DNA of 64,000 nt. Source: Micromonospora polyrhachis (lineage in GTDB: Bacteria; Actinomycetota; Actinomycetes; Mycobacteriales; Micromonosporaceae). Location: assembly GCF_014203835.1 (NCBI RefSeq), contig NZ_JACHJW010000001.1:6956501-7020500 (forward strand). The letters are read 5' to 3'. The notes beneath the pieces were generated by a model that made no database searches, was not told the DNA's origin, and saw only the letters and a list, made by a program, of their open reading frames with translations. Position numbers and translations under genes: made by a program. This document shows positions 10,163 to 26,965 of this stretch, piece after piece (position 1 is the stretch's first letter; each line of letters starts with the position of its first letter).

Positions 10163-10989
10163 TTCCGCTCCGCCCAGGGTACGCAGAACCGCTCGATCGC
10201 GGCGAGAAGGTAGAAGAGGACGACGCTCATCACGCCGAGCAGGATCATCGCGGCGAACGCCAGCGCGGTGTCGGCACTCGCGCCCGAGGCGACGATGGCG
10301 TAGCCCAGGCCCTCGGTCGCGCCGACGAACTCGGCGATGACGGCACCGATCACCGCCAGGGTGATGGCGAGCTTGAGGCCGACGAAGAGTTGCGGGATGG
10401 CGGCCGGCATCCGGATCATGCGGAACATCTGCCACCAGTTGGCCTTCATGGACCGGGCCAACTCCACCAGGTCGGGCGGAGTGGCGCTGAGTCCGGCGGC
10501 GGTGGAGATGACGATCGGGAAGAAGCAGACCAGGAAGACCAGGAAGACCTTGGGAAACTGCCCGAAACCCATCCAGACCACCAGCAGCGGTGCGACCGCC
10601 ACCTTGGGTACGGCGTTGAGCATCAGGAGCAGCGGATAGACCGTACGCTCCAACACCCGGGAGGAGGTGACGATCAGGGCCAGCGGCACACCGACCACGA
10701 TCGCGAGCAGGAAGCCCTGCACCGTCTCCCAGAGGGTGACCAGGGTGTTGTCCCACAGGTAGTCGGCCTGGTCGACCATCGCCTCCGCCACCAGCAGTGG
10801 CGACGGCAGGATGAAGCTCTCGATCTTGAAGATGACCGTGAGCGCCCACCAGAGCCCGATGGTGACGACCACGCCGAGGACCGGGAGGAGTTGCTGACTC
10901 CAGCCACCCTCCGGACGGCGGGCGCGGTGGCGACGGGTGGATGCTGCGGGCTTGGGCGTGGGCGTCGGTGCGGGCGCGGTGACCGTCAC
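10159..10989 (-). CDS. ABC transporter permease, SsuC/TauC type
   Basis: A 276-residue inner-membrane permease of the binding-protein-dependent (BPD_transp_1) class with about six hydrophobic segments. A Pro/Thr-rich basic N-terminus (residues 1-25) precedes the first helix, and the EAA-like cytoplasmic loop is around residues 165-190. The nitrate/sulfonate/taurine subfamily is indicated by the partner ATPase and the NMT1/SsuA-like binding protein. The GTG start at 10989 overlaps the ATPase stop as GTGA, and its own stop overlaps the Ldh2 ATG. Confidence 0.88.
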   Translation of the reverse strand: MTVTAPAPTPTPKPAASTRRHRARRPEGGWSQQLLPVLGVVVTIGLWWALTVIFKIESFILPSPLLVAEAMVDQADYLWDNTLVTLWETVQGFLLAIVVGVPLALIVTSSRVLERTVYPLLLMLNAVPKVAVAPLLVVWMGFGQFPKVFLVFLVCFFPIVISTAAGLSATPPDLVELARSMKANWWQMFRMIRMPAAIPQLFVGLKLAITLAVIGAVIAEFVGATEGLGYAIVASGASADTALAFAAMILLGVMSVVLFYLLAAIERFCVPWAERK

Positions 10990-11753
10990 GGTGCCACCTC
11001 CTCCGGGGTCATCAGCAGGTCGTGCAGTTGGGCGCGCAACTCGCCGAGCTCGGCGGAGTGGCCGTCGTGTCCCAACGAACGCGGCCGGGCGACATCGATG
11101 TCAATAATCTTGTAGAGGCGGCCCGGACGAGGGCTCAGTACGACCACCCGATCGGCGAGCAGGACCGCCTCGTCCACCGAGTGCGTGACGAACAGGACCG
11201 TCGACGCCTGCTTCATCTGCAGACGCTGCAGCTCCACCGAGAGGTCGGCGCGGGTCAACGCGTCGAGCGCGGAGAACGGCTCGTCCATCAGCAGCACCCG
11301 GGGCTGCTGGATCAGGGCTCGGCAGAGGGAGACCCGCTGCTGCATGCCGCCGGAGAGTTCGTGCGGCAGACGCTTGTCGAAACCGGTCAGCCCGACGAGG
11401 TCGAGTAGTTCGTCCGCCCGCTTGCGGGCCGCCCTGCGATCCAGCCCGAACACCTCGGTCGGCAGCAGCACGTTGTCCAGCACCGAGCGCCACGGCAGCA
11501 GCGCCGGCCGCTGGAACATGAAGCCGACGTCCCGCCGGGGTGAGCTGATCGGCGTACCGGCGACGGTGATCTCGCCCGAGGTGGCCGTCTGCAGGCCGGC
11601 GACGAGCCGGAGCAGGGTCGACTTACCGCACCCGGAGCGGCCGACGATCGCGACGAACTCACCGTCGGCGACCTCGAGCGACACATCGCGCAGGGCTTCG
11701 ACGTCGCCGGCCCGGGTGCGGTATATCTGCGAGACGTTACGAATTCCGATCAT
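10986..11753 (-). CDS. ABC transporter ATP-binding protein, SsuB/TauB type
   Basis: A 255-residue ABC ATPase. Walker A reads GRSGCGKST (about residues 37-45), the Q-loop is in MFQRP, the signature is LSGGMQQR, Walker B is VLLMDEPFSALD, and the switch His is in FVTHSVDEA. The ATG at 11753 is chosen over an in-frame start at 11795 because a GGGAG lies 7 nt before it. It powers import with the adjacent permease and lipoprotein. Confidence 0.92.
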   Translation of the reverse strand: MIGIRNVSQIYRTRAGDVEALRDVSLEVADGEFVAIVGRSGCGKSTLLRLVAGLQTATSGEITVAGTPISSPRRDVGFMFQRPALLPWRSVLDNVLLPTEVFGLDRRAARKRADELLDLVGLTGFDKRLPHELSGGMQQRVSLCRALIQQPRVLLMDEPFSALDALTRADLSVELQRLQMKQASTVLFVTHSVDEAVLLADRVVVLSPRPGRLYKIIDIDVARPRSLGHDGHSAELGELRAQLHDLLMTPEEVAP

Positions 11754-13665: not shown

Positions 13666-15591
13666 TCAGCCGACGGGTGGTGCCGTCCAGGAGGACCGGA
13701 TCAGTTCCCGCTCGGTGGCGGCGAGGTGGGCGGTCACGGCCAGCCAGGCCCAGGCGTACCGGTCCGGGTCGGGATCGGTGAGCCGGCCAAACACGTCCCG
13801 GCCGCGCCGCCCGGACTCGTCGGCGAGCGCGGCGGCCACCGTGGCGGCGGTCGTGAAGCCGGCGCGCCGCAGTGGACCAACCAGCCCGGTGCCCTCACCA
13901 CGCACCGCCTCGGCGACGGCGCGGCGACCGCCGGAGACGGCCAGTTCCACCAGCCGGCGGACCCGCCACAGTGGGGACTCCGCAACCGCGTCGGCGCCGA
14001 GGGCGAGAACCGGTTCGGTCATCGCGGCCGGGTCGCGCGGCGGTAGGTGGCCGCCCTGGATCTCGTCGTAGCCGAGGTCCGCCCGACCGTGCCAGTCCGC
14101 CGGCAGGCGAAGTGTCGTAGCCGCACCGGGCACCGGGCCCACCGCAAGCGGGTGCAGTGTGCTGGCCCGGTCCGGGTCCAGCCGGCCGACCACCCGGATC
14201 CGCAGGCCCGGGCGGGAGGCGAGCCGCCGCAGGTTGGCCACGTGGGCCAGCATCGGGTGAGAGTTGACCGGCACCAGCCGGATCACCGGCCCCTCCGGCA
14301 CCGGCGCGCGGTCCGCTCCGGCGTCTGTGCCCGGGGCCAGCTCGCGGGCCAGCACCTGGTCGCCAACGGCGCCCACGACCATCAGGTCACCGCCGACCAG
14401 CGCGGTCCCGGCCCGGACCGGGTCCTCCGGGTCGTCGGCGGCGAGTTGGGCGGTCACCACCTCGGCGAGCGGGCGGGCAAACAGTTCCGCCAGCGGTCCG
14501 CCAGACCAGTCGATCCCGGTGAGCGGGGTGGCCCGGACGCCCTTGCCGGCGCCGAGTCGACCGTCCGGGGAGACGGTGGTGCCGCTGATCCGCAGGCCGC
14601 CACGGGCCAGCACCGCGTGGTTGACCGCTACCGCGCCCATCTCGGTGACCGCCCGGGCGCAGTCCCGTGCCCGGTCCGGGCCACCCGGTTTCACGTCGCC
14701 GAAGGAGAGCCGACGCCCGTCAGCGGCGACCAGGTGGGTGACCACCCCGGCGTACCCGGTCGCACTGATCACCGGTTCCCGACAGACGCCGTAGACCTCC
14801 AGCGTGCCGTCCGGCTGGTACGCCCGCCGGAGGATGCCGATCAGCGCCGGATCGGGATCACCGGCGGCCAGCCGGCCGGCGACGTACAGCAGGTCGTGCA
14901 GCACCTCGACCAGCTCGGCCAGCCGGTGGCCGGCGTGTCGTCCCCGGTGTGCGCGCAGGCCACGCACCGTGCGCAGCGCGGCACTCTCCGCCCGCGGCAG
15001 ACCGGCCAGCCGGGCGCTGTGTGCGGCCCGCAGCAGTTCAGCCTGGGGAACCGCACCGGCGGCCGGCGCGCCGGCCGCGAGCACCGCGGCGGCTGACCGC
15101 CACAGCGCGCTGGCGGCGGCCCGTTGCGCCTTCGTCGGTGCCGTGCTCCGGCCGGTACGACCGGAGTCCGCGCCAGCCGACATCGCAGGCCCTCCGGACC
15201 GGCGGGTGGACGCGCCGAGACTGTCCTGTGCGGACGAATCTGCGGTGGATACCGGGTCGGAATGGGTGGCCGGGTCGGCGACCGGGCAGGCAACCAGGAC
15301 CGCGGTCCGGTGCAGGCAGCGGGGTGCCAGCAGGCAGCTACACCGCGCCTGGTGTGGATCGGTGACCGCGCCGGTCGGTCCGGGCGTCAGGGTGACCAGG
15401 GCCTCGGTGCCACAGTCGACCGACACGCCACCATCGACCCGACCGACGGGAACACCGGCCAGCCGTTCGACGGTGGCGTCCAGCCGCTTGTGTAGCCGGG
15501 ATGGCAGGGCCGCCACCGCCGCGCTGGCGACCGCCGGCAGCACCGGTGGCAACCGGTCGGTCTGCACGGCGGTGGGTGTGCTGTCCGTCAA
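13666..15591 (-). CDS. SWIM zinc-finger protein of the MoxR-VWA locus (YehQ-like)
   Basis: A 641-residue protein with an early SWIM zinc finger: C84-x-C86 and C92-x-H94 in the segment ARCSCLLAPRCLH. SWIM domains bind zinc and are associated with DNA or protein binding. The remainder is Ala/Leu/Arg-rich, with an acidic Ser/Thr linker around residues 105-150 and long helical stretches after. Its ATG overlaps the DUF5682-VWA stop (ATGA), making it the last gene of the operon. By order and content it corresponds to E. coli YehQ, whose function is unknown. No catalytic motif was recognised. Confidence 0.75.
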   Translation of the reverse strand: MTDSTPTAVQTDRLPPVLPAVASAAVAALPSRLHKRLDATVERLAGVPVGRVDGGVSVDCGTEALVTLTPGPTGAVTDPHQARCSCLLAPRCLHRTAVLVACPVADPATHSDPVSTADSSAQDSLGASTRRSGGPAMSAGADSGRTGRSTAPTKAQRAAASALWRSAAAVLAAGAPAAGAVPQAELLRAAHSARLAGLPRAESAALRTVRGLRAHRGRHAGHRLAELVEVLHDLLYVAGRLAAGDPDPALIGILRRAYQPDGTLEVYGVCREPVISATGYAGVVTHLVAADGRRLSFGDVKPGGPDRARDCARAVTEMGAVAVNHAVLARGGLRISGTTVSPDGRLGAGKGVRATPLTGIDWSGGPLAELFARPLAEVVTAQLAADDPEDPVRAGTALVGGDLMVVGAVGDQVLARELAPGTDAGADRAPVPEGPVIRLVPVNSHPMLAHVANLRRLASRPGLRIRVVGRLDPDRASTLHPLAVGPVPGAATTLRLPADWHGRADLGYDEIQGGHLPPRDPAAMTEPVLALGADAVAESPLWRVRRLVELAVSGGRRAVAEAVRGEGTGLVGPLRRAGFTTAATVAAALADESGRRGRDVFGRLTDPDPDRYAWAWLAVTAHLAATERELIRSSWTAPPVG

Positions 15592-18500
15592 CGTGATCCT
15601 CCGCGGATGCGGTCGCCCACCCAGCGGGCGAGTTCGAGCGGGCTGAGAGCGGCGACCGGCATCCCGGCCGCGACGAGCTGCTCGGCGACCGGCACCGAAT
15701 AGCAGGGCACTCCCCTGTCGTTCAGCGCGGCGCAGCCGAGCAGGTGCACACCGGAACTGGCCAGGGTGCGAACCTCACCGAGCAGCCCGGCCAGCGGGTA
15801 GCCCTCCTCGAAGTCGCTGACCACCGCGACGATGGTGCGGCTCGGCACGGTCACCAGCGAGCGGGCGTGGGCCAGCCCGGCGGCGATGTGCGTACCGCCG
15901 CCGACCCGCACCTCCAGCAGCAGGGACAACGGGTCGTCGACCCGGTCGGTCAGGTCGACCACCTCGGTGGAGAAGGCCAGGAAGTGGGTGGACAGGGTGG
16001 GCACCCCGCCCAGCACCGCGGCCGTCAACGCCGACCACACCACCGACGCCTCCATCGAGCCGGACACGTCGACCACCAGCACCAGCCGCCAGTCGGCCTC
16101 CCTGCGGGTCCGGGTGTTGAAGACCGGGCGTTCCGGCACCACGACCGTCCGGCCGTCGTCGAGCTGCTGGGTGTGCCGCAGGTTCGCCTGAAGCGTACGG
16201 GCGAGGTTGAGCCGGCCGCCGGGACGGCGGGACGGACGCGGGTTGGTCAGCCCGGTCAACGCCGGACGCACCTGGGTGGCCAACTGCTTTGTCAGCTCCT
16301 CGACCAGCCGCCGGACCAGCGGCCGGAGCTTGGACAGGTGCCCCTCCGGCAGGCCACCGGCCAGGGACAGCACCGAGGTCAGCAACTCCATCGAGGGGCG
16401 TACCGCGGCCGGGTCGAGCTCGGTGAGCACGTCGGTACGGCCACTCTCGGCCGCCCGGGCGATGACTTCCTCGCGTACCGCGTTGCCGAAGAGCGCCTCG
16501 AGTTCGTCGGCCCACTCGCGCGCGGTCGGGAAGGAGGCCTCCTGGCCGCCGCCGGCCGCCTGGCCGAGGTCGGTGGCGCCCTCGCCCTGGCCCGCCCCGT
16601 ACAGCTCGTCCAGGGCGCGGGCATAGCGGCGGGCATCGGCCGGCAACCGGTCGGGTTGGCGGCCGAGCAGCAGCCGCCACCGGTCGGTGGCGGTGAGCTG
16701 GGCGGTCGGCGTGTCCGCCCCGGGCTCGACGTCGGCGGAGCCGGTCGGCGTGTCCGACCCGGGCTCGACCTCCGCGGAGCCGGTCGGCGTGCCCGGGATC
16801 GGTATGTCGCGGGCGATCAGGGCGGCCCGACCGGTCAGGTCGGCGGCGGTCCAGCGGGCCAGCAACTCGGGCGGGGCGGACAGGGCCAGGTCGAGCCGGT
16901 CGCCGAGCCGGTCGGCGACGGTGTGCAGCAGCCGGTCCCGGGCCGCCGGGGTGAGCACGTCGAACCCGCCGCGCAACGCCGGCAGCCGGTCCAGGAACTC
17001 GGTGTCGGTGAGCCGCTCGATCCGCTCCAGCAGCGGGTCCAGCGCGGCCGGGGCGGACTGCAGCAGCGGGTGCGCCGCAGTGAGCAGACCACCGAGCAGC
17101 CGGTGCAGGTGCCGCCGGGTGTCCGGTCCGGTCGCGGCGTCGATCCAGCCGGCCACCCGGCTGCCCAGGACCTCCAGATCGGTCAGGTCGAGCAGCACCC
17201 GGGCGGCCAGGGCGGCACCCTGGATCAGTGGTGAACCGGCCCGGGCCAGGTAGCCGAGGGCCTCGTCCAGGCGCAGGCCGATCCGATCCTCACCGGCCCG
17301 GACCGCGAGGTCGACCAACGCGGCGGCGTCGGCTGTGGCGTCGCTGCCGGCCAGGCCGGGCAGCCCGCGGACCGCCGCGTCGAGCAGCACGACGGCCAGC
17401 TCGGCCGCCCGGACCCGACCTTCGGCGGTGGTGCCGGGCAGGTGTTCCCTGCGCAGCGCCTCGAGCAGGTCCAGTGCGGCCAGCAGTTCGGGGAGCGTCC
17501 CGGTGCCCGGCAGCACCACGGTGGCCAGTTCGAGCCGGTCGGTGACCAGCTCGGGCAGGTCACAGCGGGCGGCGTCGCGTAGCCCGGTGAGCAGCTGCCC
17601 GGCGGTGGGGCCGCCGTCGGCGGCCTCCCGGCGGAACCGCTCGCGCAGGGTGCCGGCCGCAGCCAGCGCCGCGGTCACCCCGCGTACGCCGACCAGGTCC
17701 AGCCGGGCCGCCACGGACGGCGTCCAGGCCAGTTGCCAGCGGGTGGTCAGGGCGGCACCGTCGCCGGTGCCGGAGACCGCGATCGGCTCGCCGTAGCCGA
17801 TGCCGCAGATCTGCAGACGTTGCAGCAGGATCTCCCGCCGCCCGTCCAGCTCGGTACGCAGCGGGTCCAGTCGGACCTCGCGAGACTTCGGGCTGTCCGG
17901 GTTGGGCAGCCGCAGCGCGGTGAGTTCCGCCTCGACGGCGGGACCGAGGCCGGACCTCGGCGTACCGGGGGCGATCCGGCCACGCTCGGCACCGACCAGC
18001 ACCGTCTCCAGCGCCTTGGCCAGTGCTCGGCCGCGGCCGAGCAGTTCACCCTGGCCGAGCACGGTGGTCACCGCCTCCAGCACCTCGCCCCGGCCGGGGG
18101 CGGGCAGGTCCCGCAGCCGGGCTAGGTCGCCGGCCAGCCGTACCGTCTCGGCGGCCTCGCCGGTACCTGCGGTGTGACCGGCCGAGCGGAGTTCCCGGCA
18201 CAGGTCGGTGACCGCCCGGGCGGCGGCAGCCCAAATCCGTTCCGGGTCGCCGGCAGCGGTGAAGACGGACTGCTGCCAGCGCGGGTCGCGGATCCCGGCC
18301 GGGTAGCCGGAGCGGGAGTCGAGCAGGTCGAACGCGTACGGCACCAGCGAGGTGATCGCGGTGCCGCCGCCCTTGGTGGCTGGCCCGGGCTGGGTCGTCA
18401 CGGATCGGACCGGACTGGCCGGGGTGGTGCCGCCGGTCGTGCCGGTCGTCGGGGCGGGGTCGGCGTCGGTCGACGCGGTGGCGAGCAGGGCCGGGGCATG

Positions 18501-19301
18501 GAAGGCGCCGATGACGGCGGCGACCCGCCGGCCGTCCGCGCCGGCCTCGGCCAGCACCCGGCGCATGTGCTGCTCGCGCGCCAGATCCCGGACCGGTATG
18601 CCGTCGCCGCTGGCACTGTCGGTACGCATCGCCCAGCCGACGCCGAGGGCGGCCCGACGGACCGCCTCGGGCGGGCAGCCCGGGGCACGCACCTCGACCA
18701 CCCGGTCCCACAGGTCGTCGCCGTCCCGACCGGTGCCGCTGGCGCTGAGGGCGGCGGCGTAGCCGGACCAGCGCAGGCCGGGAACCGGGGCACCACCGGC
18801 GGTCGGGTCGGAGTCGGTGGTCGGGTCGGACCCAGCGGTCGGGTCGATGGCGTCGGCACTCCAACCGGGGTCGGTCAGCGGCAGATCACAGCAGACCACC
18901 TCGACGCCGCGCTGCCGGGCCCAGCGGATCGCGGCCAGTTCCGGGGAGAAGTCGGCGAACGGGTAGAAGCCCGTCGGTCCGTCCTCGCCATGGCTGCCGA
19001 CCAGGGCCAGCGGCGCCCGGGCAGCCGGGTCGGACAGGTACGGCAGCCAGGGCTGGAAGTCGGCCGGCAGCTCGATGCAGACCACCTCGGCCTCGGCGGT
19101 GTCGAGCAGCGCCGGGACCACCGCCGCCAGGGCCGGGCTGTGATGCCGCACCCCGATCAGGTACGGCCGGACCGTACCGGCGAGCGCGTCGACCACGGCT
19201 CGCGGGTCGGCCGGCGTCGAATCGACCGTCGACGGGTCGACGGGTGGCGGGTCGACGGGCGGCGGGGCCACACCGGTCGACGTGCTGGCGAAGGTCGTCA
19301 C
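15588..19301 (-). CDS. DUF5682-VWA fusion protein (YehM-YehP-like)
   Basis: A 1237-residue fusion. Residues about 45-750 match the DUF5682 pattern, beginning YLIGVRHHSPALAAVVPALL with an IELPADFQPWL strand. About residues 850-880 are a repeated acidic linker. The C-terminal 170 residues are a von Willebrand A domain with an intact metal site: DVSGSM (near residue 1077), a GGGTHI threonine, and VVSDFEEG. MoxR ATPases usually act with VWA proteins as chaperone pairs for metal insertion or complex remodelling. In E. coli these are two proteins, YehM and YehP; here they are one chain. The GTG at 19301 overlaps the MoxR stop as GTGA and is chosen over a longer frame. Function unknown. Confidence 0.82.
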   Translation of the reverse strand: MTTFASTSTGVAPPPVDPPPVDPSTVDSTPADPRAVVDALAGTVRPYLIGVRHHSPALAAVVPALLDTAEAEVVCIELPADFQPWLPYLSDPAARAPLALVGSHGEDGPTGFYPFADFSPELAAIRWARQRGVEVVCCDLPLTDPGWSADAIDPTAGSDPTTDSDPTAGGAPVPGLRWSGYAAALSASGTGRDGDDLWDRVVEVRAPGCPPEAVRRAALGVGWAMRTDSASGDGIPVRDLAREQHMRRVLAEAGADGRRVAAVIGAFHAPALLATASTDADPAPTTGTTGGTTPASPVRSVTTQPGPATKGGGTAITSLVPYAFDLLDSRSGYPAGIRDPRWQQSVFTAAGDPERIWAAAARAVTDLCRELRSAGHTAGTGEAAETVRLAGDLARLRDLPAPGRGEVLEAVTTVLGQGELLGRGRALAKALETVLVGAERGRIAPGTPRSGLGPAVEAELTALRLPNPDSPKSREVRLDPLRTELDGRREILLQRLQICGIGYGEPIAVSGTGDGAALTTRWQLAWTPSVAARLDLVGVRGVTAALAAAGTLRERFRREAADGGPTAGQLLTGLRDAARCDLPELVTDRLELATVVLPGTGTLPELLAALDLLEALRREHLPGTTAEGRVRAAELAVVLLDAAVRGLPGLAGSDATADAAALVDLAVRAGEDRIGLRLDEALGYLARAGSPLIQGAALAARVLLDLTDLEVLGSRVAGWIDAATGPDTRRHLHRLLGGLLTAAHPLLQSAPAALDPLLERIERLTDTEFLDRLPALRGGFDVLTPAARDRLLHTVADRLGDRLDLALSAPPELLARWTAADLTGRAALIARDIPIPGTPTGSAEVEPGSDTPTGSADVEPGADTPTAQLTATDRWRLLLGRQPDRLPADARRYARALDELYGAGQGEGATDLGQAAGGGQEASFPTAREWADELEALFGNAVREEVIARAAESGRTDVLTELDPAAVRPSMELLTSVLSLAGGLPEGHLSKLRPLVRRLVEELTKQLATQVRPALTGLTNPRPSRRPGGRLNLARTLQANLRHTQQLDDGRTVVVPERPVFNTRTRREADWRLVLVVDVSGSMEASVVWSALTAAVLGGVPTLSTHFLAFSTEVVDLTDRVDDPLSLLLEVRVGGGTHIAAGLAHARSLVTVPSRTIVAVVSDFEEGYPLAGLLGEVRTLASSGVHLLGCAALNDRGVPCYSVPVAEQLVAAGMPVAALSPLELARWVGDRIRGGSR
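16705..16782. repeat. Two 39-bp tandem repeats coding an acidic linker
   Basis: Two near-identical 39-bp units (16705-16743, 16744-16782) and a partial third lie in the DUF5682-VWA gene. They encode 13-residue repeats of the form TPTGSA(E/D)VEPG(S/A)D between the two domains. The period preserves frame, so copy number may vary between strains without breaking the gene. Confidence 0.8.
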
Positions 19302-20488
19302 CGCAGGTTCTCCCGCAGGTCCCAGAGCCGGCGCCACATCGCCGAGCCGTCCTCGGCGCGGCGGCGGACCGGGCCGTCCCAGTAGCCGAGCAGCCGGGCG
19401 TGGTCGTTCTGGTCATCCTTGCGGACCACGCCGAGCAGGTGCCCGGGCACCAGGTCGAGCGCGTCTCCGCCGGGCAGGTACGCGGCGGCCAGCCCGAGCG
19501 ACGCCGCCACCTGCACCGCCTCGGCCGTGGACATCACCGTGCCAGGCCGTTCCACGTCCCAGCCCTCGCCCGACCGGCCGGAACGCAGGTCGCGGAACAC
19601 GGTGACCAGGGCGTCCAGCACCGCATCGTCCACGGTGTAGGCCGCGCCAGCGCGCTGCACGGCGGCGGTGGCCTGCCGGCGGACCAGGTCGGTCTCGGTG
19701 TCCACGTCCGAGATCGGGTGGATGGTCTCGAAGTTGAATCGGCGCTTGAGGGCCGAGGACATCTCCGACACGCCCCGGTCCCGCAGGTTGGCGGTGGCGA
19801 TCACGGTGAACCCGGGTGCCGCGCGGATCAGGCCGTTCTCGGTACCGCTCAGCTCCGGCACGTTCATCCGCCGGTCGGACAGGAGGGACACCAGCGCGTC
19901 CTGCACCTCGGGCAGGCAGCGGGTGACCTCTTCGATCCGGACCACCCGGCCGGTACGCATGGCGGTCAGCACCGGCGAGTCGACCAGCGCCTGCGGGGTC
20001 GGCCCCTGGGCGAGCAGCAGGGCGTAGTTCCAGCCGTACCGGAAGGCGTCCTCGGTGGTGCCGGCGGTGCCCTGCACGGTCAGCGCGCTGGTGCCACAGA
20101 CCGCGGCGGCCAGCAGCTCGGACAGCATGGACTTGGCGGTACCGGGTTCGCCGACCAGCAGTAGGCCCCGCTCGCCGGCCAGGGTGACCACGCACCGCTC
20201 GACCAGGCTCCGCTCACCGACGAACTTTGCCGCGATGGTCATGCTGGCCGGCAGTCCGGTGTCGGCCGGGCCGGTGCGCCGGTCGGCGGGCAGCTTCAAC
20301 GCCTCACCGTCGCTGCCCTGGATGAAGGTAACCACGGCACGCGGGGTCAGCGCCCAGCCCGGCGGCCGGGCCCCGTCGTCGTACGCGGCCAGGAAGGCCA
20401 GCTCATCGGCGTACCGCTGTTCGGCGGAGAGAACCTGGGCGGCGGTCTCCGGCGCCCCGGTGGAGCGGACGTGTTCCGTCACGGTCAC
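19298..20488 (-). CDS. MoxR-family AAA+ ATPase (YehL-like)
   Basis: A 396-residue AAA+ ATPase of the MoxR group. Walker A is GEPGTAKS (residues 113-120), Walker B is VVRIEEVTR, sensor 1 is the Asn in VIATANLRD, and an arginine-finger-like ALKRRF follows. MoxR proteins form hexamers that remodel client complexes together with VWA-domain partners. The gene's stop overlaps the DUF5682-VWA start (GTGA), and it lies 34 bp after the 1692-residue gene. Order and partners match E. coli yehL. Client unknown. Confidence 0.9.
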   Translation of the reverse strand: MTVTEHVRSTGAPETAAQVLSAEQRYADELAFLAAYDDGARPPGWALTPRAVVTFIQGSDGEALKLPADRRTGPADTGLPASMTIAAKFVGERSLVERCVVTLAGERGLLLVGEPGTAKSMLSELLAAAVCGTSALTVQGTAGTTEDAFRYGWNYALLLAQGPTPQALVDSPVLTAMRTGRVVRIEEVTRCLPEVQDALVSLLSDRRMNVPELSGTENGLIRAAPGFTVIATANLRDRGVSEMSSALKRRFNFETIHPISDVDTETDLVRRQATAAVQRAGAAYTVDDAVLDALVTVFRDLRSGRSGEGWDVERPGTVMSTAEAVQVAASLGLAAAYLPGGDALDLVPGHLLGVVRKDDQNDHARLLGYWDGPVRRRAEDGSAMWRRLWDLRENLR

Positions 20489-20522
20489 TGGTATTCCTCG
20501 ATCTCTCTGGTTTGGACGGGGG

Positions 20523-23500
20523 TCAGCGGCGGGTGCCGCGGGTGGGCAGGTTGTCGAACCGGGGTCGGTCGCCGTCGCGGAGACGTTGCCAGGCCCGCCG
20601 GTAGAGGTCGGCGGCCGGTTCGAACGGCACGGTCACGTCGAGCCCGGCCGTGCCGTCCGGTGCGAGGTCGAACAGGGCGGTCTTCCAGCCCTCGATCGGC
20701 GCCTGCCCGCTGCCGCGCTCCAGCCACGGGCCGGGCAGAAACAGCGACCGGCCGGCCCGGGGCCGGCTGGCCTCGACGACCAGGTCGGTGCCGGCCAGTT
20801 CGGCGCGGGCTGCCTTCAGTCGGGTCGGCTTCCAGCCGGTCCACTTCGCCGTGTTGCGGTCGGTCGGGTCCGGCATGGCCAGCAGCATCAGGTACACCGC
20901 CGCCGCGTCGACGCCCAGGCCGTGTTCCCCGGACACCGTGGTGACCAGTTCGGGCACCGAGCGGGTCGGATCCTGCGGCCACCAGGTGCCGTCCGTCGCC
21001 CGCGCACCGCCGCCCGGCTCCCCCGGATCGCCGAGCAGCGCCGCGAACTGTGGGTCGCGGGCCAGGCGCAGGGCCACCTCCGTCGGGTACGGCTTGGCCG
21101 CGTCCGACCGCAGCGCCGGCAGGTACGGATCCGTCCCGTCTGCGTCGAGCAGGTCCGGCCGCAGCGCGGGTGAGGGCTGGTTGTCGTGGGTGGCCAGGAC
21201 GATGGCGCCGTACCGTTCCCAACCCGGTCCGGTCTCCGACGGGGTGCCCGCCACCTGGCGGAACGCGGGCAGGGAGGCGTACTGGTTGAGGTCGAGCAGC
21301 AGGCGGGGGTTGGTCAGCCGGGCCCGGATCGCAGCCAGCGCGGCCGGCAGCGCGGCCCGGCACGGATCGCCGGCCGGTGTGTGGTGGGCGACCCAGGCCG
21401 TGAGGGCGACCGTGGAGCGCAGCACCTCACCGGTGAAGCCTTCTGCCTGGCCGTCGACCGACCGGGCCCGGTCGCCCTTGATCTCGAAGGCCAGGTCGGT
21501 GGTCAGCTCGGCCGAACGGGCCGGGTCGAGCAGCGCCGGCAACGCCTTCGCCGGCCCCCAGCCGGTGCGGACCGTGCGCACCGCCTCGGCGAGCAACTGT
21601 TCGGGCACCGCCACCCGACGTCCCAGAGCCGCGTTCCAGACCGCCGCGGCGGCGGTCACGTCCGGACCGTCGGTCCACAGCCGGGCCGGGTCGTCCGGCA
21701 GCAACGCCGAGACCACCGCCCGCCGGAGCTTCGGCCTGGCCTCGTTCAGCATCCCGAAGGCCAACTTGACCTCGCCGATCTGCTTGATCCCGAGCGCCTT
21801 GCGCAGCTCGGGCGGAACGGTGTTCGCCGAGTCGGCGTACGGAAGGCCAGCCAGCACCAGCTTCGCGGCGGTGGGGGTGACGCCGGTCAGCTCGGCGAAC
21901 TGCTCGGCCGCTTCCGGCCGCCAGGGCAGTACGCCGCGAGCGGCCCACTCGGTGCGGAAACCGGCCAGCCAGCCGGCCTGCCGTTCGTCACCGACCGGCA
22001 CCGAGGAGCGCACCGTGTACGGCTCGGGAACGGCGAACACGCCGGCCGGATCGTGGTGCAGCGCGTCGAAGGAGTAGCCGGTTCTCGTACCGCTGCTGCT
22101 GAGGATGCCGATGAATGCCCCGTCAGGCAACGGCAGGATGCCCGGCCCGGGGTACCGGCGCGTGCCGTCGGGGTTGTTGAGGTCCTCGTCCAGCAGGTGC
22201 AGCGTGCACCGGTGCCACCGGGCCGGTTCGGCCGTCGCGCCCAGGCCGAGCTGGTCCAGCTCGGTGAGCAGGGCGCGCAGCGTCTCCCGGTGTTCGTCGG
22301 GGGTGACCGCCGCGACGGCCCGGTAGGCGACGGCTGCGACACCGCCGAGCAGGGACCACCAGTCGAGAGCGTCCGGCAGCGACGGTCCGTCGAGGTGCAG
22401 CCGTACGGCGGGTTCGCTTCCGGTGGTGGCGGACCGCTGGGCGGCGAACGCCTGGAACTGGGTGAATGCCTTGGTCGAGTCACTCGCCCCGTAGGCCGAG
22501 CCGCGCAGGCCGTCCAGCGCCAGGTTGAGCTGCGTGTCGGTGGGTCCGCTCGCGGTGACCACCGGTGCCACCGGTTTCGGGGCGGACAGCGACCTGGTGA
22601 GCCGCTCGGCCACCTCCTCCAGGTCGGTACGCACCCGGGCGGCCAGCCGCAGCACCCCGGCTACCCCGGCCAGCACCGCGTCATGGCTGATCGCCGGCAT
22701 CGTCGAGCGGACCAGCTCGACCAACGCGTCCTTGTCGTCTTCGTCGGCGGTGGCACCGGTGCCGGGTGCGCCGGTGCCGGAGGGACCGCCCGGTGCGCCG
22801 CCAGTGGACGCCGGGACGGCGACAGAAAAGCCGGTGATGGCCTGCGTGGCCGTGGTCAGCCCGGATCGGTTCGCCGCCTTGGCCGCGGCCCGCGCGGCCT
22901 CTTCGGCCAGGGTGGCGCGACGTTCGTCGAGGGCGGCCTTGAACAGCGTGGCGGCGGTGTGCCGGTCCACCCGGCGCAGGGCGGTGGAGCCGGCCACATC
23001 CCGGGGCAGCAGGTTGCCGAGGAACTCCCGCAACGGCAGCGGGACCACCCTGGAGGTGTAGTCCCGGCCGGACGACGCTCCGGCGGTGGCCGACACCACA
23101 CCGTCCGGGTCGACCAGGACGAGACCCTTGAGTACGGCCCGCGGCCGGTCGTCGCCGGGCAGCACCAGCGCCGCGATCGGTGCCTGTCCCGGGGCCACGG
23201 TGACGGTACGACCGGCCAGGTCCTCGCCGCGTACCGAGCCGTCCGGAAGGGTGACCACCCGCCAGCCGAGTAGACCGTCCACCGGAGCGGCGGCCGGGGT
23301 GGCCCGGTCGGACAGGGCCGGCCGCAGCCAGCTGGCCGACTCCTGGAGGCGGCTTCCGTCCACCGGCAGCTCGGCCAGGAACCGGGGTAGGCTTCGCCGG
23401 CCGTGGGTGTTGCTGGCCGGGTCGTACTCGCGCCAGCCGCGGTCGCCGCTCTCCGCGCCGGAGCGGTGGACCCAGTGGGAGATGCCGTCGGTGATGACCG

Positions 23501-25601
23501 GCAGCTCCACCGGGACAGCGGTGTCACCGACGTGCAGCACACCGTCGCCGGTGGTGCGCCCGCCGCCGGTCAGCGGCAGGGTGATCTCGTTGCGGCGCTC
23601 CCGGCCGCCGTGCAGATAGCCGCTGATGGCCTGCGGCTCGCCGGGCGACGAGTGCCAGTAGCCGCACGCGTCGTAGTTGAACGCCCGGGAACGCCAGAAG
23701 ACCAGCAACTGGCCGTCGACGTAGTGGTAACCGGGCTGGCCCCACATGTCGCCGGCCGGGATGCGCAGGTCGTGACGGAGCACGATGCCCTCGGCGCCGA
23801 CCACGCGTACCGTGGTCGGCCCGCCCAGGATCACGTACGGCCAGGCTTCGTGCCGGGTCACCTCGACCCGATGGTCCCCGCCGGTCACCTCCTGCCAGGC
23901 CAGCTCCCAGTCCGGCCAGCCCAGCTCGTCGATGATCCCGCCGCGCAGGCTGCGGGCGACGTGCTCGGTGAGATCGACATCGAGAGCCTCCCGGAGTTCG
24001 CTGCCCGGACCGAGTTCACCCGATCCGCCGGGCTCGTCGGACACCAGGCGCAGCGCCTCGACCGGGATCCTGCCCAGCCAGTTCACCGCCTCCGGCAGAT
24101 ATGGCAGCCCGGTGGTGAACCGGTCGCGGATCCGGGCCCGCAGCCAGTCGGTCAGCAACGGCCGGACGCCCGCCGTCCCGGCCAGCCGGCGCTGGGCCTG
24201 CTGCTGATTGTCGACCTGGTCGAGGCCGCGGCGCAGGGCCCCGGCGAACCGGTCGTCACCGGTCAGGGCGAGCAGATCCCGCTGTCCCTCAACGTTCACC
24301 CAGTGCGCCAGGTTCAGGGTGTCGCGTTCCCTCGGCGGTGCCACCGGCACGTCGAGGGCGAGCAGCAGGTCGAGCAGGTCCAGGTCGCCGTCAACGGCAA
24401 GGGTCGCGCCGCTGTCGGCCAGCTCGGCGCGCAGCCGGGCGGCCATCCGCTCGACGAGTGGGTACAGCTCCCGCAATGGACGGTAGCGGACTGGGTCGGC
24501 CCGCTTCACGATGCGACGCAGCCAGCCGACGGAGCCGTCCTGCGGGCGGGCCGGGTCAGGCACGTCCGGGTCGGACAGTCCGGCGAGCGCACCGGTGTCG
24601 GCCAACAGGGTCAGCCACATGACCAGGTCGTCCCGGTCGGCGGGCATCAGATCGAGCAGGCTGCCACGGACCGCCGGGTCGCGGCCGGCCAGCGCCATCA
24701 CCGCCGGCAGGTGCGCCTTCCACCAGCCGGCCGGTGCCTCGGCGGCCACCGGTAGCCGGAGCAGCTCGGCCAGGTAGGCCGCCTCACGGTCGGTGACGAC
24801 GGTGGCACCGGCCTTACCAGCGGCCTTGGTGGCGGCACGGACCAGCCGGTTCACCGCGTTGGCCGACTGCGTGGAGGGAACCACGCCGCCCGCGGCGGCC
24901 CGTAGCGCCAGCCGGCAGAACCGGTCCAGCGCCTCGTCGGCCGGCAACTGGGCGGACAGCGCCTTCGCGTGGCCAGCCAGCGCGGTCGCGGAAACCACCT
25001 TGGCCGCCGCGAATTCCACGTAGACCTCGTCCAACCGGTTCAGGTCGACCGGCAGGCCGTGCTGCGCCTCCGCCTTGCGCGCCTTGTTGAACAGCTGCGT
25101 CGCGTAGGCGTCCTGCCCGGCGGCCAGGAACACCCGCGCCGCCTGCTCGAAGAACGTCGGCAGGAAGTGCGGCAGCGTACGGGCGAACCGGTCGGCGATG
25201 CCCTGGTGTCCGTCCAGGGCGGCCTTCGGCCGCGACCGGACCTGCTTGGTCAGCTTCTGCAACTCCGGCACCACCGCCAACGCGTGCCGGCCGTCTGCGG
25301 GGTGGTGCACCAGCACCCACTCCGGGAAGGCCAGCGGGCGGCGCGGGCCCAGCCCGACGACGGCCGGTTCGGCTCCCGGCGTCAGGCCGAGGAACCCGAC
25401 GGCGATGTCCTCGCCCTCGCCGAGGGCGGCGTCGACCAGGCGGACCACCGGCCGGTCGTCGAGAGCCGGGTGCCGGTAGGTGCGGACAGTGAGGGGAACC
25501 GCCCGGTCGCCAGCGCCAGCGGTGTCGACCGGCAGCACCGCGCCAGCGGCCAGCAGGCTCTCGGCCGAATCCCCGTCCGACATGGTCGTCATCCCGGTCA
25601 C
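20523..25601 (-). CDS. 1692-residue uncharacterised protein of the MoxR-VWA locus
   Basis: A very large cytoplasmic protein without signal peptide or membrane segments. It is mostly Leu/Ala/Arg-rich and probably helical. A Gly/Pro/Thr-rich low-complexity linker (DNA about 22749-22813, residues about 929-951) divides it into two halves. The N-terminal part, with FARTLPHFLPTFFEQAARVF near residue 130, and a C-terminal segment rich in short Trp/Pro/Asp loops show no enzyme motif I can name. The GTG at 25601 overlaps the DUF4132 stop as GTGA and has GGAG upstream, so the two are translationally coupled. In E. coli the corresponding DUF4132 protein YehI is one long chain; this protein may replace its N-terminal region. 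Confidence 0.8.
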   Translation of the reverse strand: MTGMTTMSDGDSAESLLAAGAVLPVDTAGAGDRAVPLTVRTYRHPALDDRPVVRLVDAALGEGEDIAVGFLGLTPGAEPAVVGLGPRRPLAFPEWVLVHHPADGRHALAVVPELQKLTKQVRSRPKAALDGHQGIADRFARTLPHFLPTFFEQAARVFLAAGQDAYATQLFNKARKAEAQHGLPVDLNRLDEVYVEFAAAKVVSATALAGHAKALSAQLPADEALDRFCRLALRAAAGGVVPSTQSANAVNRLVRAATKAAGKAGATVVTDREAAYLAELLRLPVAAEAPAGWWKAHLPAVMALAGRDPAVRGSLLDLMPADRDDLVMWLTLLADTGALAGLSDPDVPDPARPQDGSVGWLRRIVKRADPVRYRPLRELYPLVERMAARLRAELADSGATLAVDGDLDLLDLLLALDVPVAPPRERDTLNLAHWVNVEGQRDLLALTGDDRFAGALRRGLDQVDNQQQAQRRLAGTAGVRPLLTDWLRARIRDRFTTGLPYLPEAVNWLGRIPVEALRLVSDEPGGSGELGPGSELREALDVDLTEHVARSLRGGIIDELGWPDWELAWQEVTGGDHRVEVTRHEAWPYVILGGPTTVRVVGAEGIVLRHDLRIPAGDMWGQPGYHYVDGQLLVFWRSRAFNYDACGYWHSSPGEPQAISGYLHGGRERRNEITLPLTGGGRTTGDGVLHVGDTAVPVELPVITDGISHWVHRSGAESGDRGWREYDPASNTHGRRSLPRFLAELPVDGSRLQESASWLRPALSDRATPAAAPVDGLLGWRVVTLPDGSVRGEDLAGRTVTVAPGQAPIAALVLPGDDRPRAVLKGLVLVDPDGVVSATAGASSGRDYTSRVVPLPLREFLGNLLPRDVAGSTALRRVDRHTAATLFKAALDERRATLAEEAARAAAKAANRSGLTTATQAITGFSVAVPASTGGAPGGPSGTGAPGTGATADEDDKDALVELVRSTMPAISHDAVLAGVAGVLRLAARVRTDLEEVAERLTRSLSAPKPVAPVVTASGPTDTQLNLALDGLRGSAYGASDSTKAFTQFQAFAAQRSATTGSEPAVRLHLDGPSLPDALDWWSLLGGVAAVAYRAVAAVTPDEHRETLRALLTELDQLGLGATAEPARWHRCTLHLLDEDLNNPDGTRRYPGPGILPLPDGAFIGILSSSGTRTGYSFDALHHDPAGVFAVPEPYTVRSSVPVGDERQAGWLAGFRTEWAARGVLPWRPEAAEQFAELTGVTPTAAKLVLAGLPYADSANTVPPELRKALGIKQIGEVKLAFGMLNEARPKLRRAVVSALLPDDPARLWTDGPDVTAAAAVWNAALGRRVAVPEQLLAEAVRTVRTGWGPAKALPALLDPARSAELTTDLAFEIKGDRARSVDGQAEGFTGEVLRSTVALTAWVAHHTPAGDPCRAALPAALAAIRARLTNPRLLLDLNQYASLPAFRQVAGTPSETGPGWERYGAIVLATHDNQPSPALRPDLLDADGTDPYLPALRSDAAKPYPTEVALRLARDPQFAALLGDPGEPGGGARATDGTWWPQDPTRSVPELVTTVSGEHGLGVDAAAVYLMLLAMPDPTDRNTAKWTGWKPTRLKAARAELAGTDLVVEASRPRAGRSLFLPGPWLERGSGQAPIEGWKTALFDLAPDGTAGLDVTVPFEPAADLYRRAWQRLRDGDRPRFDNLPTRGTRR

Positions 25602-26455
25602 GCCTTCTCCCCCGTTCCGGTCTGGGCGCCGGAGAGTGCCGTCGCCATCCGTATTCCTTCCGACCAGGCCACCGGCCCGACCTCGGTCAACCGCAGCGTC
25701 GGCCCGTCCACGACCGACCAGGAGAGGCTGCCCAGGGTCGCCTCGGAGTCCCAGTAGTCCTCGTCGAACCACATAGCGGCCTCGACCGTGCGACCGGCCT
25801 CCCAGACCCGGCATCTGACCTGCGAGCCGGAGACCCGGAAGCCGAGCGCGGCGGCCCGGGCGGCCAGCCGGTTGGGGACCGTGGTGCCGTGGTAGTCGGT
25901 GATCGTGGTGTCCCGTTCCTTCACGTTGGCGGGTCGACCCCAGGTGCCCCGGTGCAGTTGCTCGACCCGCTGGGTGATGTCCAGTTCGTCGGCGAACTCA
26001 CGCAGGTCCGTCAGGTCGGGTAGGCGCACCGGATGGGGCAGCGTGGCGCTGGCCGGCGAGAGCCGGACGGTGTCCCCGTCGAGGTTGACCACGCGCAGGT
26101 CGCCGGTGTCGGTGACGTCCCGCAGGAAACCCGGCTCGGCCGGGTCGTCTCCGAGCACCACGAGGTCGCGCAGCGCGTCCTGCCAGGCGGGGTCTGGCCA
26201 GACCCGGGCCAGCAGCCCGGTCGGCACCGGCAGCGAGGAGACCACCCAGGCGTCGACCCGGGCCAGACATTCAGCGCTGTGCCGGTCCAGCCACTGGGCG
26301 AGCTGGCGCAACCGGTCGACCTCGGGGTCGTCCCGTAGCACCTTCGGCAGGGTCTTCAGTGGACGCCCGGTGGCCCGCAAGCCGACAGAGCGGGCCGTGA
26401 CCTTCCCGTCCACAAGGGAGATCTCGTACGAGTCTCCCACCGGTAGCCAGCCCAT
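25598..26455 (-). CDS. DUF4132-domain protein (YehI/MolR C-terminal-like)
   Basis: A 285-residue protein with the DUF4132 pattern: GRPLKTLPKVLRDDPEVDRL around residue 31-50, a 'W.DPAWQDAL' segment, a HPVRLPDLTDLREFADEL stretch, and RVEQLHRGTWG, resembling the HP...QPF.QL.R motif of the family. In enterobacteria the domain sits at the C-terminus of large WGR proteins such as YehI. Here it stands alone as the first gene of the operon. The ATG at 26455 has GGAGGG at suitable spacing and is preferred over a longer frame to 26584. Role unknown; possibly a structural partner of the next giant protein. Confidence 0.7.
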   Translation of the reverse strand: MGWLPVGDSYEISLVDGKVTARSVGLRATGRPLKTLPKVLRDDPEVDRLRQLAQWLDRHSAECLARVDAWVVSSLPVPTGLLARVWPDPAWQDALRDLVVLGDDPAEPGFLRDVTDTGDLRVVNLDGDTVRLSPASATLPHPVRLPDLTDLREFADELDITQRVEQLHRGTWGRPANVKERDTTITDYHGTTVPNRLAARAAALGFRVSGSQVRCRVWEAGRTVEAAMWFDEDYWDSEATLGSLSWSVVDGPTLRLTEVGPVAWSEGIRMATALSGAQTGTGEKA

Positions 26456-26965
26456 CAGGAACACCCTCCGCAGTGGCGAATTAGCCAGATTTCGTGAGGA
26501 ATCGCCTGCGATCGACGACGCACGGAACGCTAACAGTAGTGACCGACACGACAGGCACCCATCGGCGGGCGGCGGTGGGCGCATCGGCCCTGGGGGCCGG
26601 CGGGACGAGTGGGACGGGACCCGCGAGAGTCGCAGGTCCGGCCGGTCCGGGAAGCATCAGCACAGCCGAGACGAAACATCGACCAGTGACTCAGGTCACA
26701 TCAAAAGGGCCCACGGAGAGGCCGGCGACTCCCACAAGCCCGTTGCGACCGGCGATACCCAGCAGTGTGGTCGGTTGAGTGGAAGCTTCAGGGTGAACGC
26801 ACAGCTCCACCCTGGGCATCGCGGCGATGAGGGCCAGCACCTCGGGGTTCGTCGGCGCGGTGGTCACTGACACGGGTGCACGGGGTCCGGCGCCGTTCAC
26901 CCCACGGTACTATTTCTTATTAAAGAGCACTGCGAACAACTGCGGCGACGCACCTGGGAGTAGGA
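26456..26965. other. Divergent intergenic region, contains an adenosine-deaminase remnant
   Basis: 510 bp between the leftward DUF4132 gene and the rightward HxlR gene. Promoters for both must lie here. The AT-rich stretch near 26907-26930 (GTACTATTTCTTATTAAAG) supplies TANNNT boxes for HxlR, and short arms TCTT/AAGA could be an HxlR-type operator. The middle carries the remnant listed separately. Confidence 0.5.
26691..26900 (-). pseudogene. Remnant of an adenosine-deaminase-family N-terminus
   Basis: A 69-codon frame starting at a GTG (26900) reads through LALIAAMPRVELCVHPEAST and then QPTTLLGIAGRNGL before stopping. This lines up with the conserved opening of adenosine deaminases and relatives (PK(A/V)ELHVHLEGS..P.TLLELA.RNG). 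The metal ligand His-x-His is broken to Cys-x-His, and about 270 downstream codons expected for the family are absent. I read it as a decayed, truncated gene that once stood divergent to the HxlR regulator. A short functional ORF is possible but unlikely. Confidence 0.55.

Follow-up and report, generated by a model that had tools for sequence, protein, structure and literature searches.

The YehL branch of the MoxR ATPases has carried a name for about two decades, and to our knowledge no function has been attached to it. It is already listed as a MoxR subfamily (PMC3893208), and in Escherichia coli K-12 it is found in the gene run yehI-yehK-yehL-yehM-yehP-yehQ. The locus described here is a five-gene operon on the minus strand of a 64,000-nucleotide stretch of Micromonospora polyrhachis DNA (contig NZ_JACHJW010000001.1, positions 6,956,501 to 7,020,500), the whole of which is called the window. 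At window positions 13666-26455 this operon presents the same families as the E. coli genes, DUF4132, MoxR, DUF5682, VWA and SWIM, in the same order. E. coli differs in having a single large DUF4132 protein, separate YehM and YehP proteins and the extra YehK, and in lacking the 1692-residue protein that we call GIANT. We consider it on balance probable that the operon encodes a YehL-type, ATP-driven remodelling machine inducible by DNA damage. Its most likely role would be the remodelling, induced by DNA damage and driven by ATP, of a nucleoprotein target, perhaps accompanied by proteolysis, where we infer both the regulation and the chemistry.

A sequence-only reading of the window had proposed five coupled leftward genes for a DUF4132 protein, a 1692-residue protein, a MoxR ATPase, a DUF5682-VWA fusion and a SWIM protein, and all five were confirmed. 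The features of the operon, in the order of transcription, are:

26527..26548, minus strand: PafBC-type (RecA-independent DNA-damage) promoter motif TGTCGG-N10-TA-N3-T, 71 base pairs (bp) before the DUF4132 start
25598..26455, minus strand: short DUF4132 protein, 285 amino acids, conserved MGWL start (Pfam PF13569, 86 bits)
20523..25601, minus strand: GIANT, 1692 amino acids, no known domain, 4-bp overlap with the DUF4132 gene
19298..20488, minus strand: YehL-type MoxR AAA+ ATPase, 396 amino acids, Walker A GEPGTAKS
15588..19301, minus strand: DUF5682-VWA fusion (YehM plus YehP), 1237 amino acids
18447..19190, minus strand: predicted TIKI-superfamily-like domain of DUF5682, protein residues 38-285, with GVRHH, E, D, E, R and GAFH
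16812..17672, minus strand: helical-repeat region of DUF5682, protein residues 544-830 (AlphaFold2 model)
15618..16283, minus strand: VWA_CoxE domain with an intact metal-ion-dependent adhesion site (MIDAS; DVSGSM)
13666..15591, minus strand: SWIM-motif protein, 641 amino acids, remote YehQ relative
15310..15342, minus strand: SWIM motif CSCLLAPRCLH (CxCx5CxH), protein residues 84-94

Three of the four junctions are 4-bp overlaps, and a 34-bp gap separates GIANT from MoxR. Pfam assigned the proposed families above cut-off (DUF4132 86, DUF5682 687, VWA_CoxE 211 and AAA_5 128 bits), and the motifs GEPGTAKS, DVSGSM, GGGTH and SDFEEG were all found in the proteins. GIANT gave no Pfam or NCBIfam match at E 0.1, the SWIM protein gave no Pfam match, neither of the two matched a PDB sequence at E 1, and DUF5682 returned just two chance-like PDB sequence matches (E 0.19 and 0.44). 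A stand-alone GIANT relative of 1175 amino acids lies elsewhere in the genome (G000:C1:2169163-2172531; L011 8170-11697); the 19 kilobases (kb) read around it held no MoxR or DUF5682 gene, and one match row shows an internal TGA.

By BLAST, the MoxR protein is 46% identical to YehL over 373 amino acids (E 1e-98; the comparison was with YehL alone amongst the E. coli MoxR proteins). YehP aligned from end to end with fusion residues 873-1234 (37% identity, E 2e-62; E. coli K-12, L004) and YehM matched the fusion at 26% identity (E 4e-21); the anticipated joining of YehM- and YehP-like parts is one of a full-length YehM to a full-length YehP. The short DUF4132 protein aligned with YehI-type DUF4132 proteins in hhalign at E 2.9e-5. 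GIANT was considered as a part of a split YehI and rejected (hhalign E 0.27; no counterpart in YehI by BLAST). The zinc finger named in the sequence-only reading stood as a CxCx5CxH motif shared with YehQ and invariant across 22 aligned family members, E. coli YehQ among them, but the kinship with YehQ is only remote: hhalign gave E 0.0019, with two controls at 0.17 and 0.24, and a hidden Markov model built from SWIM proteins of the window type only missed YehQ even at E 10. An initial SWIM homology, obtained with pooled seeds from both sides, was set aside as circular, and the separate hhalign comparison serves as the independent test.

The window genome, a single contig of 7.15 megabases (Mb), contains three DUF5682 genes. 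At least one such gene was present in 24 of the 41 genomes of the relatives set (window genome counted) and, across the phylum, in 6 of 100 genomes; in the viral collection IMG/VR, none of 29 DUF5682 pattern matches was a relative by tblastn. Neighbourhood reading, with Pfam applied to ten example proteins, distinguished four layouts with a common core of MoxR, DUF5682 and VWA:

Layout A: SWIM-DUF5691-MoxR-DUF5682-VWA
Layout B (class B): the window type
Layout C: the E. coli type, which includes a large DUF4132 protein; L061, the one scanned with Pfam, also has WGR
Layout D: VWA-MoxR-DUF5682, preceded by two unnamed genes

The view of the window locus as the actinobacterial counterpart of yehI-L-M-P-Q held for family content and order, but not for direct equivalence. 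The same genome also has an E. coli-like cluster of layout C (L009, whose DUF4132 gene lies on the opposite strand) as well as a third layout (L010). The window locus is accordingly a derived paralogue, to which GIANT has been added. It was filed as a variant of the YehL-type module because its 285-residue DUF4132 protein stands beside an apparently unrelated 1692-residue protein, and not as a YehI-like large DUF4132 protein. Layout D (L010 14360-16320; relatives L066-L074) opens with a gene pair of about 126-203 and 454-474 amino acids, and the L010 pair, which was scanned, had no Pfam match.

Conservation of the five-gene order was followed in a one-genome-per-species scan with the fusion, which returned 503 relatives; the best 80 were kept and are the closest loci, not a random sample. 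The clustering was strict and not scattered: 70 of these 80 named actinomycete loci carry all five genes, in order, on one strand. The other ten comprise five at contig ends (L081, L083, L091, L123 and L152) and five without MoxR between GIANT and the fusion. Extra genes lie inside at least two of the 70 loci, one before MoxR in L106 and two on the opposite strand before SWIM in L085. The latter pair (Nonomuraea jabiensis, L085 13715-15501, between fusion and SWIM) resembles an insertion-sequence recombinase with its partner. Median gaps in the named loci were -4 bp for three junctions and 111.5 bp for the one from GIANT to MoxR. In L075-L154 the GIANT-MoxR junction is the sole one that usually does not overlap, it exceeds 450 bp in some loci, and perhaps it holds an internal promoter. 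The Walker A sequence GEPGTAKS was found in all 73 called MoxR proteins of the named loci and the MIDAS sequence DVSGSM in 73 of the 80 fusions, the remaining seven having DVSASM or DMSGSM. The nearest named relatives are from Micromonospora, with M. arborensis reaching 93% across the fusion. In a FastTree of 84 fusion rows, family labels changed 5 times over 79 labelled rows (minimum 3; at least 18 in 200 shuffles) and genus labels 15 times over 78 (minimum 10; shuffles at least 24), so that the inheritance of the operon is close to bacterial family lines. Outside the five genes no constant neighbour was found, the commonest family amongst 678 flanking genes occurring in 15 of the 80 loci.

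This pattern of inheritance bears on a further suggestion of the sequence-only reading, namely a conflict system. In that case the operon would be directed against phages or other genetic opponents and induced by the DNA damage that accompanies infection. Actinobacterial MoxR-vWA ternary conflict systems are reported to exist (PMC7159879), the accessory proteins vary among layouts A-D, GIANT is 51-54% identical where MoxR is 83% identical (L084, L106), and the occurrence of DUF5682 in the phylum is patchy, as the 6 of 100 genomes indicate. However, inheritance close to family lines speaks against this role, and PADLOC returned nothing for the five proteins beyond REase_II at E 0.031 and no match for eight of the nine neighbouring genes scanned. 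The ninth neighbour (10986-11753) matched six ATPase-type PADLOC models, the best being mad3 at E 1.6e-32, and we read it as ABC-transporter-ATPase-like. The bpMoxR profile scored below its cut-off (22.9 versus 27 bits). We regard a conflict role as highly unlikely, and the suggestion was not borne out.

A link to DNA damage is suggested by the promoter region. The motif upstream of the DUF4132 gene was first noticed through k-mer counts. It corresponds to the mycobacterial LexA/RecA-independent P1 motif, which is reported as tTGTCRgtg-8nt-TannnT (PMC5656591), and the PafBC motif of Mycobacterium tuberculosis as TGTCGG-, TGTCAG- or TGTCAC-10N-TA-3N-T (PMC8151990). The window site is the sole TGTCRGTC-N8-TANNNT match in the 7.15-Mb genome. 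A strict form, TTGTCRGTG-N8-TANNNT, was sought upstream of the window operon and of 76 named loci, 77 regions in all, where it was exact in 46 and had one mismatch in 16, two in 11, three in 2 and five in 2; amongst 369 control upstream regions of the same loci, none was exact, one had one mismatch and three had two. Allowing up to two mismatches, the comparison is 73 of 77 against 4 of 369 (Fisher 1.6e-73; Markov expectation 0.6 of 77). The shorter TGTCRG-N10-TANNNT is exact in the window and, once starts were reset to MGWL, in 73 of the 76 named loci (one has one mismatch and two have three), at a median of 84.5 bp before the reset start. No control was exact for this form, either in the same loci (0/369, with 4 at one mismatch) or in the relatives' loci (0/176, with 5 at one mismatch). 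LexA boxes of the forms GAAC-N4-GTTC and CTGT-N8-ACAG showed no excess over shuffles before the class-B operon.

The other layouts were included in a count of the looser motif, within one mismatch, upstream of first genes. It was found in 6 of 9 cases for layout A, 5 of 8 for the class-B relatives, 3 of 6 for layout C and 4 of 10 for layout D, which together make 18 of 33 against 5 of 176 controls (Fisher 5.5e-13). Dropped from this count were L041, L051 and L063 (contig end; L063 had a strict site with three mismatches) and L049 and L065 (first gene incomplete). L009 was entered twice, once per strand, and one start was used for each of L060 and L064, where several DUF4132 genes follow one another. 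The class-B relative L052 is exact after its start is reset, and the count of 5 of 8 still uses the unreset start. Altogether, these results suggest that the operon belongs to a PafBC-type DNA-damage regulon. The earlier guess of a stress-linked machine gains its content from this conserved motif, from which we infer the damage induction itself.

The same motif was searched across whole genomes. Exact strict sites numbered 39 in Streptomyces canus, 29 in S. stelliscabiei, 19 in S. lavendulae and 14 in Nonomuraea roseoviolacea, with 0 for the reversed pattern in each, which outlines a putative PafBC regulon in three Streptomyces and Nonomuraea, with between 14 and 39 exact sites in each genome. 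For the 39 S. canus sites, a called gene start lay within 300 bp in 33 cases and further away in 4, with none for 2. Pfam was run on 30 of the 33 downstream genes (left out were L214, which is the operon itself, L250 and L251), and 10 of these 30 belong to DNA repair or replication families: RecA, UvrA, UvrB, a RecD2-type protein, MgsA/RarA, HhH-GPD, O6-methylguanine methyltransferase, DNA polymerase III gamma/tau, a Helicase_C_2 helicase and a presumably RadA-like protein. The layout-A SWIM gene also stands behind an exact S. canus site. In the three Streptomyces, an exact site adjoins all six DUF5682 modules, at the operon start and about 7 kb upstream of DUF5682 in the three class-B operons, and at a divergent promoter 1.3-1.6 kb from DUF5682 in the three layout-A loci. 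The Nonomuraea class-B site (L099) has one mismatch, and in the window genome TGTCGG-N10-TA-N3-T lies close to the start of recA. For S. venezuelae, an initial search is reported to have missed the mycobacterial PafBC motif, and such a response in Streptomyces was left open (PMC9380542). The 19-39 exact sites in three other Streptomyces genomes, with recA, uvrA and uvrB behind them in S. canus, bear on that question.

Two side observations belong to these searches. Genes for DUF4253, SUKH-4, DUF3263 and a WGR protein with beta-propeller-like matches also lie behind exact S. canus sites. Additionally, RecA of the window genome (G000:C1:1361705-1363798; L263, L264) is interrupted by roughly 1 kb of additional in-frame sequence within a 732-amino-acid open frame, RecA query residues 4-212 and 203-337 matching separately in an intein-like pattern.

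Alternatively, a genuine motif could be recognised by a different regulator, such as ClgR or another WYL factor, so that the operon would answer to general protein-quality stress and not to DNA damage. ClgR has been reported to recognise the same P1 motif (PMC5656591), which weighs against a PafBC reading, and the window genome has 19 WYL matches, with a WYL pair about 1 kb apart at C1:6565738-6566960. On the other side stand the occurrence of the motif before recA, uvrA, uvrB and further S. canus repair genes, and the PafBC-specific -26 element and activation of PafBC by single-stranded DNA reported in mycobacteria (PMC11804915). We hold control by another regulator to be quite improbable.

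Several further observations count against assigning the operon to a DNA-damage regulon. The window motif is two mismatches off the mycobacterial consensus and exact only to the M. tuberculosis variant. With at most one mismatch allowed, the strict motif is only mildly enriched in the window genome (24 sites versus 9 reversed), and just two query-site pairs tie the S. canus gene set to window-genome sites. The layout-A site of the Streptomyces is directed at SWIM, with none seen on the MoxR-DUF5682-VWA side, and none of the four DUF5682 matches in Nonomuraea lies within 10 kb of an exact strict site. The motif is weaker in layouts C and D (3/6 and 4/10 within one mismatch), L056 and L058, among the eight class-B relatives, lack a site within one mismatch, and the E. 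coli yeh region shows no convincing SOS box (8 sites with at most three mismatches, 4.3 expected).

Independent hints of a damage link may be drawn by analogy from two other organisms. The first concerns MoxR1 and MoxR2 of M. smegmatis, which we take to be of another MoxR branch than YehL. Both are reported to be 1.6-1.7-fold lower in M. smegmatis without PafBC (PMC5656591). The second is the drA0165-drA0166 operon of Deinococcus radiodurans, which includes a DUF4132 gene and is described as strongly up on DdrO depletion; the authors tie the DUF4132 domain, as a suggestion, to molybdopterin biosynthesis (PMC8533742).

What the machine might do to its client is suggested by the first ~250 residues of DUF5682, for which a fold like that of the TIKI superfamily (TraB/ChaN/erythromycin esterase) is predicted. 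A model covering the initial 310 residues of the DUF5682 region (predicted local distance difference test, pLDDT, 77; predicted template-modelling score, pTM, 0.75) found its best structural match in Tetrahymena complex-IV chains (Foldseek probability 0.98, E 0.003; Z 10.4). Complex IV of the Tetrahymena supercomplex is reported to include a TraB-family protein (PMC10060162), which is probably the matched chain. Further matches were ChaN (2g5g, Z 8.6), HopBA1 (5t09, 7.8), PMT (2ebf, 6.8), EreC (6xcq, 6.7) and 3b55 (6.3), and the TIKI matches with Z 10.4, 8.6, 7.8 and 6.7 had root-mean-square deviations of 4.0-5.1 over 140-199 residues. ChaN, HopBA1, PMT and 3b55 have been assigned to the TIKI superfamily (PMC6254334). 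An 833-residue model gave Foldseek and VIA-align lists filled by helical repeats save for the Tetrahymena chain, so absences there exclude nothing, and the domain-only model yielded the wider TIKI set.

The conserved residues can be read in the same order in both families, the middle ones being equated by order alone: G38xxH41, E67, D141, E159, R228 and G249xxH252 in TraB/GumN (YbaP numbering), and GxxH, E35, D101, E143, R175 and G199xxH202 in DUF5682 (E. coli YehM numbering). Across 16 rows from layouts A-D and E. coli, the Glu and the second GX2H were invariant. The first His was present in all 14 rows reaching it (two rows were too short), and the first GX2H reads VCHH in three layout-D rows. 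In hhalign, the last R...GxxH block aligned with TraB/GumN at E 0.0015 (profile A12) and 0.0074 (A3), while six unrelated profiles gave at least 0.24. Pfam TraB (PF01963) was found in 0 of the 41 genomes of the window's group.

The case for a hydrolytic TIKI-like domain has its own counterweights. No Foldseek E-value for the TIKI match was below 0.003, the hhalign alignment to TraB/GumN spans 34 columns at a probability of 17%, the class-B-only profile A10 aligns elsewhere (E 0.017), and of four DUF5682 proteins searched at a threshold of E 10, one matched Pfam TraB, at E 0.42. The DUF5682 alignment showed two His and one Glu of the RRSP-type 2His/2Glu set, the first Glu not being seen. ChaN, moreover, shows that a TIKI fold can be non-catalytic.

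These residues also enter into another possibility, namely a chaperone that inserts a metal or cofactor, in the manner of NorQ-NorD. In that case, MoxR and VWA would insert a cofactor into a client such as a metal-dependent repair enzyme, and the TIKI-like domain would bind a ligand without cutting, as ChaN binds haem. MoxR-VWA pairs are known for insertion (PMC13036017, PMC9976466), ChaN is the second-best fold match, and the missing first Glu fits such a role. Retention of the Glu and the second His in 16 of 16 rows, and of the first His in 14 of 14, argues against it, as does the lack of a constant outside neighbour that could be the client, the commonest family reaching 15 of 80 loci. An insertion chaperone appears unlikely to us.

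The five clusters without MoxR bear on the part that MoxR plays. A six-frame search found no MoxR in L144, L145, L150, L151 or L154; in L055 and L056 MoxR is present and was missed only by the gene caller, and the SWIM gene of L144, uncalled as well, was recovered by the six-frame check. The MoxR-less loci form one clade on the fusion FastTree. Loss of the MIDAS alongside MoxR was considered and rejected, since in the alignment the five loci read DVSASM and so keep DxSxS. Each of the five genomes in question also encodes a same-type MoxR at another place, which is 73-75% identical to that of the window. It lies within a complete second cluster in four of them and stands alone in Kitasatospora aureofaciens NRRL B-2183. 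There, the orphan MoxR gene (L157 2614-4110) sits between MerR and LacI neighbours, as does the complete cluster of Streptomyces tendae L159, and the remnant retains the exact promoter motif, the DUF4132 gene up to codon 40, short pieces of GIANT and about 35 fusion codons in two frames, with an intact MoxR (97% identity over 389 residues). Since promoter and MoxR were kept while four genes decayed, and the other cluster of this genome is MoxR-less, this is a hint that the orphan MoxR serves the other cluster in trans. This is a single case, and unfinished decay is an alternative.

If the operon is indeed a DNA-damage-inducible remodelling machine, its action could be pictured as follows. DNA damage would yield single-stranded DNA and so activate PafBC, a switch taken over from mycobacteria; PafBC would recruit RNA polymerase at the 26527-26548 motif, leading to joint expression of the five genes. 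A MoxR hexamer might then act through the VWA (MIDAS) part of the fusion upon a bound client. The TIKI-like domain of the same chain could cut or otherwise hydrolyse this client, or could bind a ligand in the way that ChaN does. The SWIM protein, the short DUF4132 protein and GIANT may recognise or scaffold the damaged-DNA-associated target. A bolder version, which we find rather doubtful, would see here a novel kind of ATP-dependent proteolysis serving DNA repair, induced by PafBC and without kinship to Clp, Lon, FtsH or the proteasome, in which the MoxR ring feeds damage-associated proteins, held by VWA and recruited by SWIM, DUF4132 and GIANT, to a TIKI-fold peptidase in the VWA polypeptide, with interchangeable layouts from actinomycetes to E. 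coli. A literature search, with most subscription journals beyond its reach, found nothing linking the module to PafBC or DUF5682 to the TIKI fold, nor the term DUF5682; because of that reach, such silence is no proof of novelty. The DNA-damage promoter motif and the predicted TIKI fold together provide a testable hypothesis for the YehL module in actinomycetes kept in the laboratory and in E. coli K-12.

Amongst the known systems, the RavA-ViaA and NorQ-NorD chaperones likewise pair a MoxR ATPase with a VWA protein bearing a MIDAS, and we know of no TIKI-like domain in the VWA partner of either. They are placed in other MoxR subfamilies than YehL (PMC3893208). VMAP-type MoxR-vWA ternary conflict systems resemble the module in combining MoxR and vWA with a third constant protein, but here that third protein is DUF5682, and the bpMoxR match is under cut-off. 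With the TIKI enzymes (TraB/GumN, ChaN, erythromycin esterases and RRSP), DUF5682 shares the predicted fold and the GX2H, Glu and GX2H positions, and in TraB/GumN (GSIH) the first Glu is absent as well; it differs from these enzymes in that the predicted domain is joined to a helical-repeat region and a VWA domain. Closer at hand, layout C (L009 and its relatives) has MoxR-DUF5682-VWA-SWIM with a large DUF4132 protein alongside, but neither the fusion nor GIANT, and its PafBC-type motif is weaker. Layout A replaces DUF4132 and GIANT by DUF5691, with SWIM first and, in the three Streptomyces, divergent from MoxR, yet it has the same core as the window operon, and in all three of those genomes the exact PafBC motif adjoins it.

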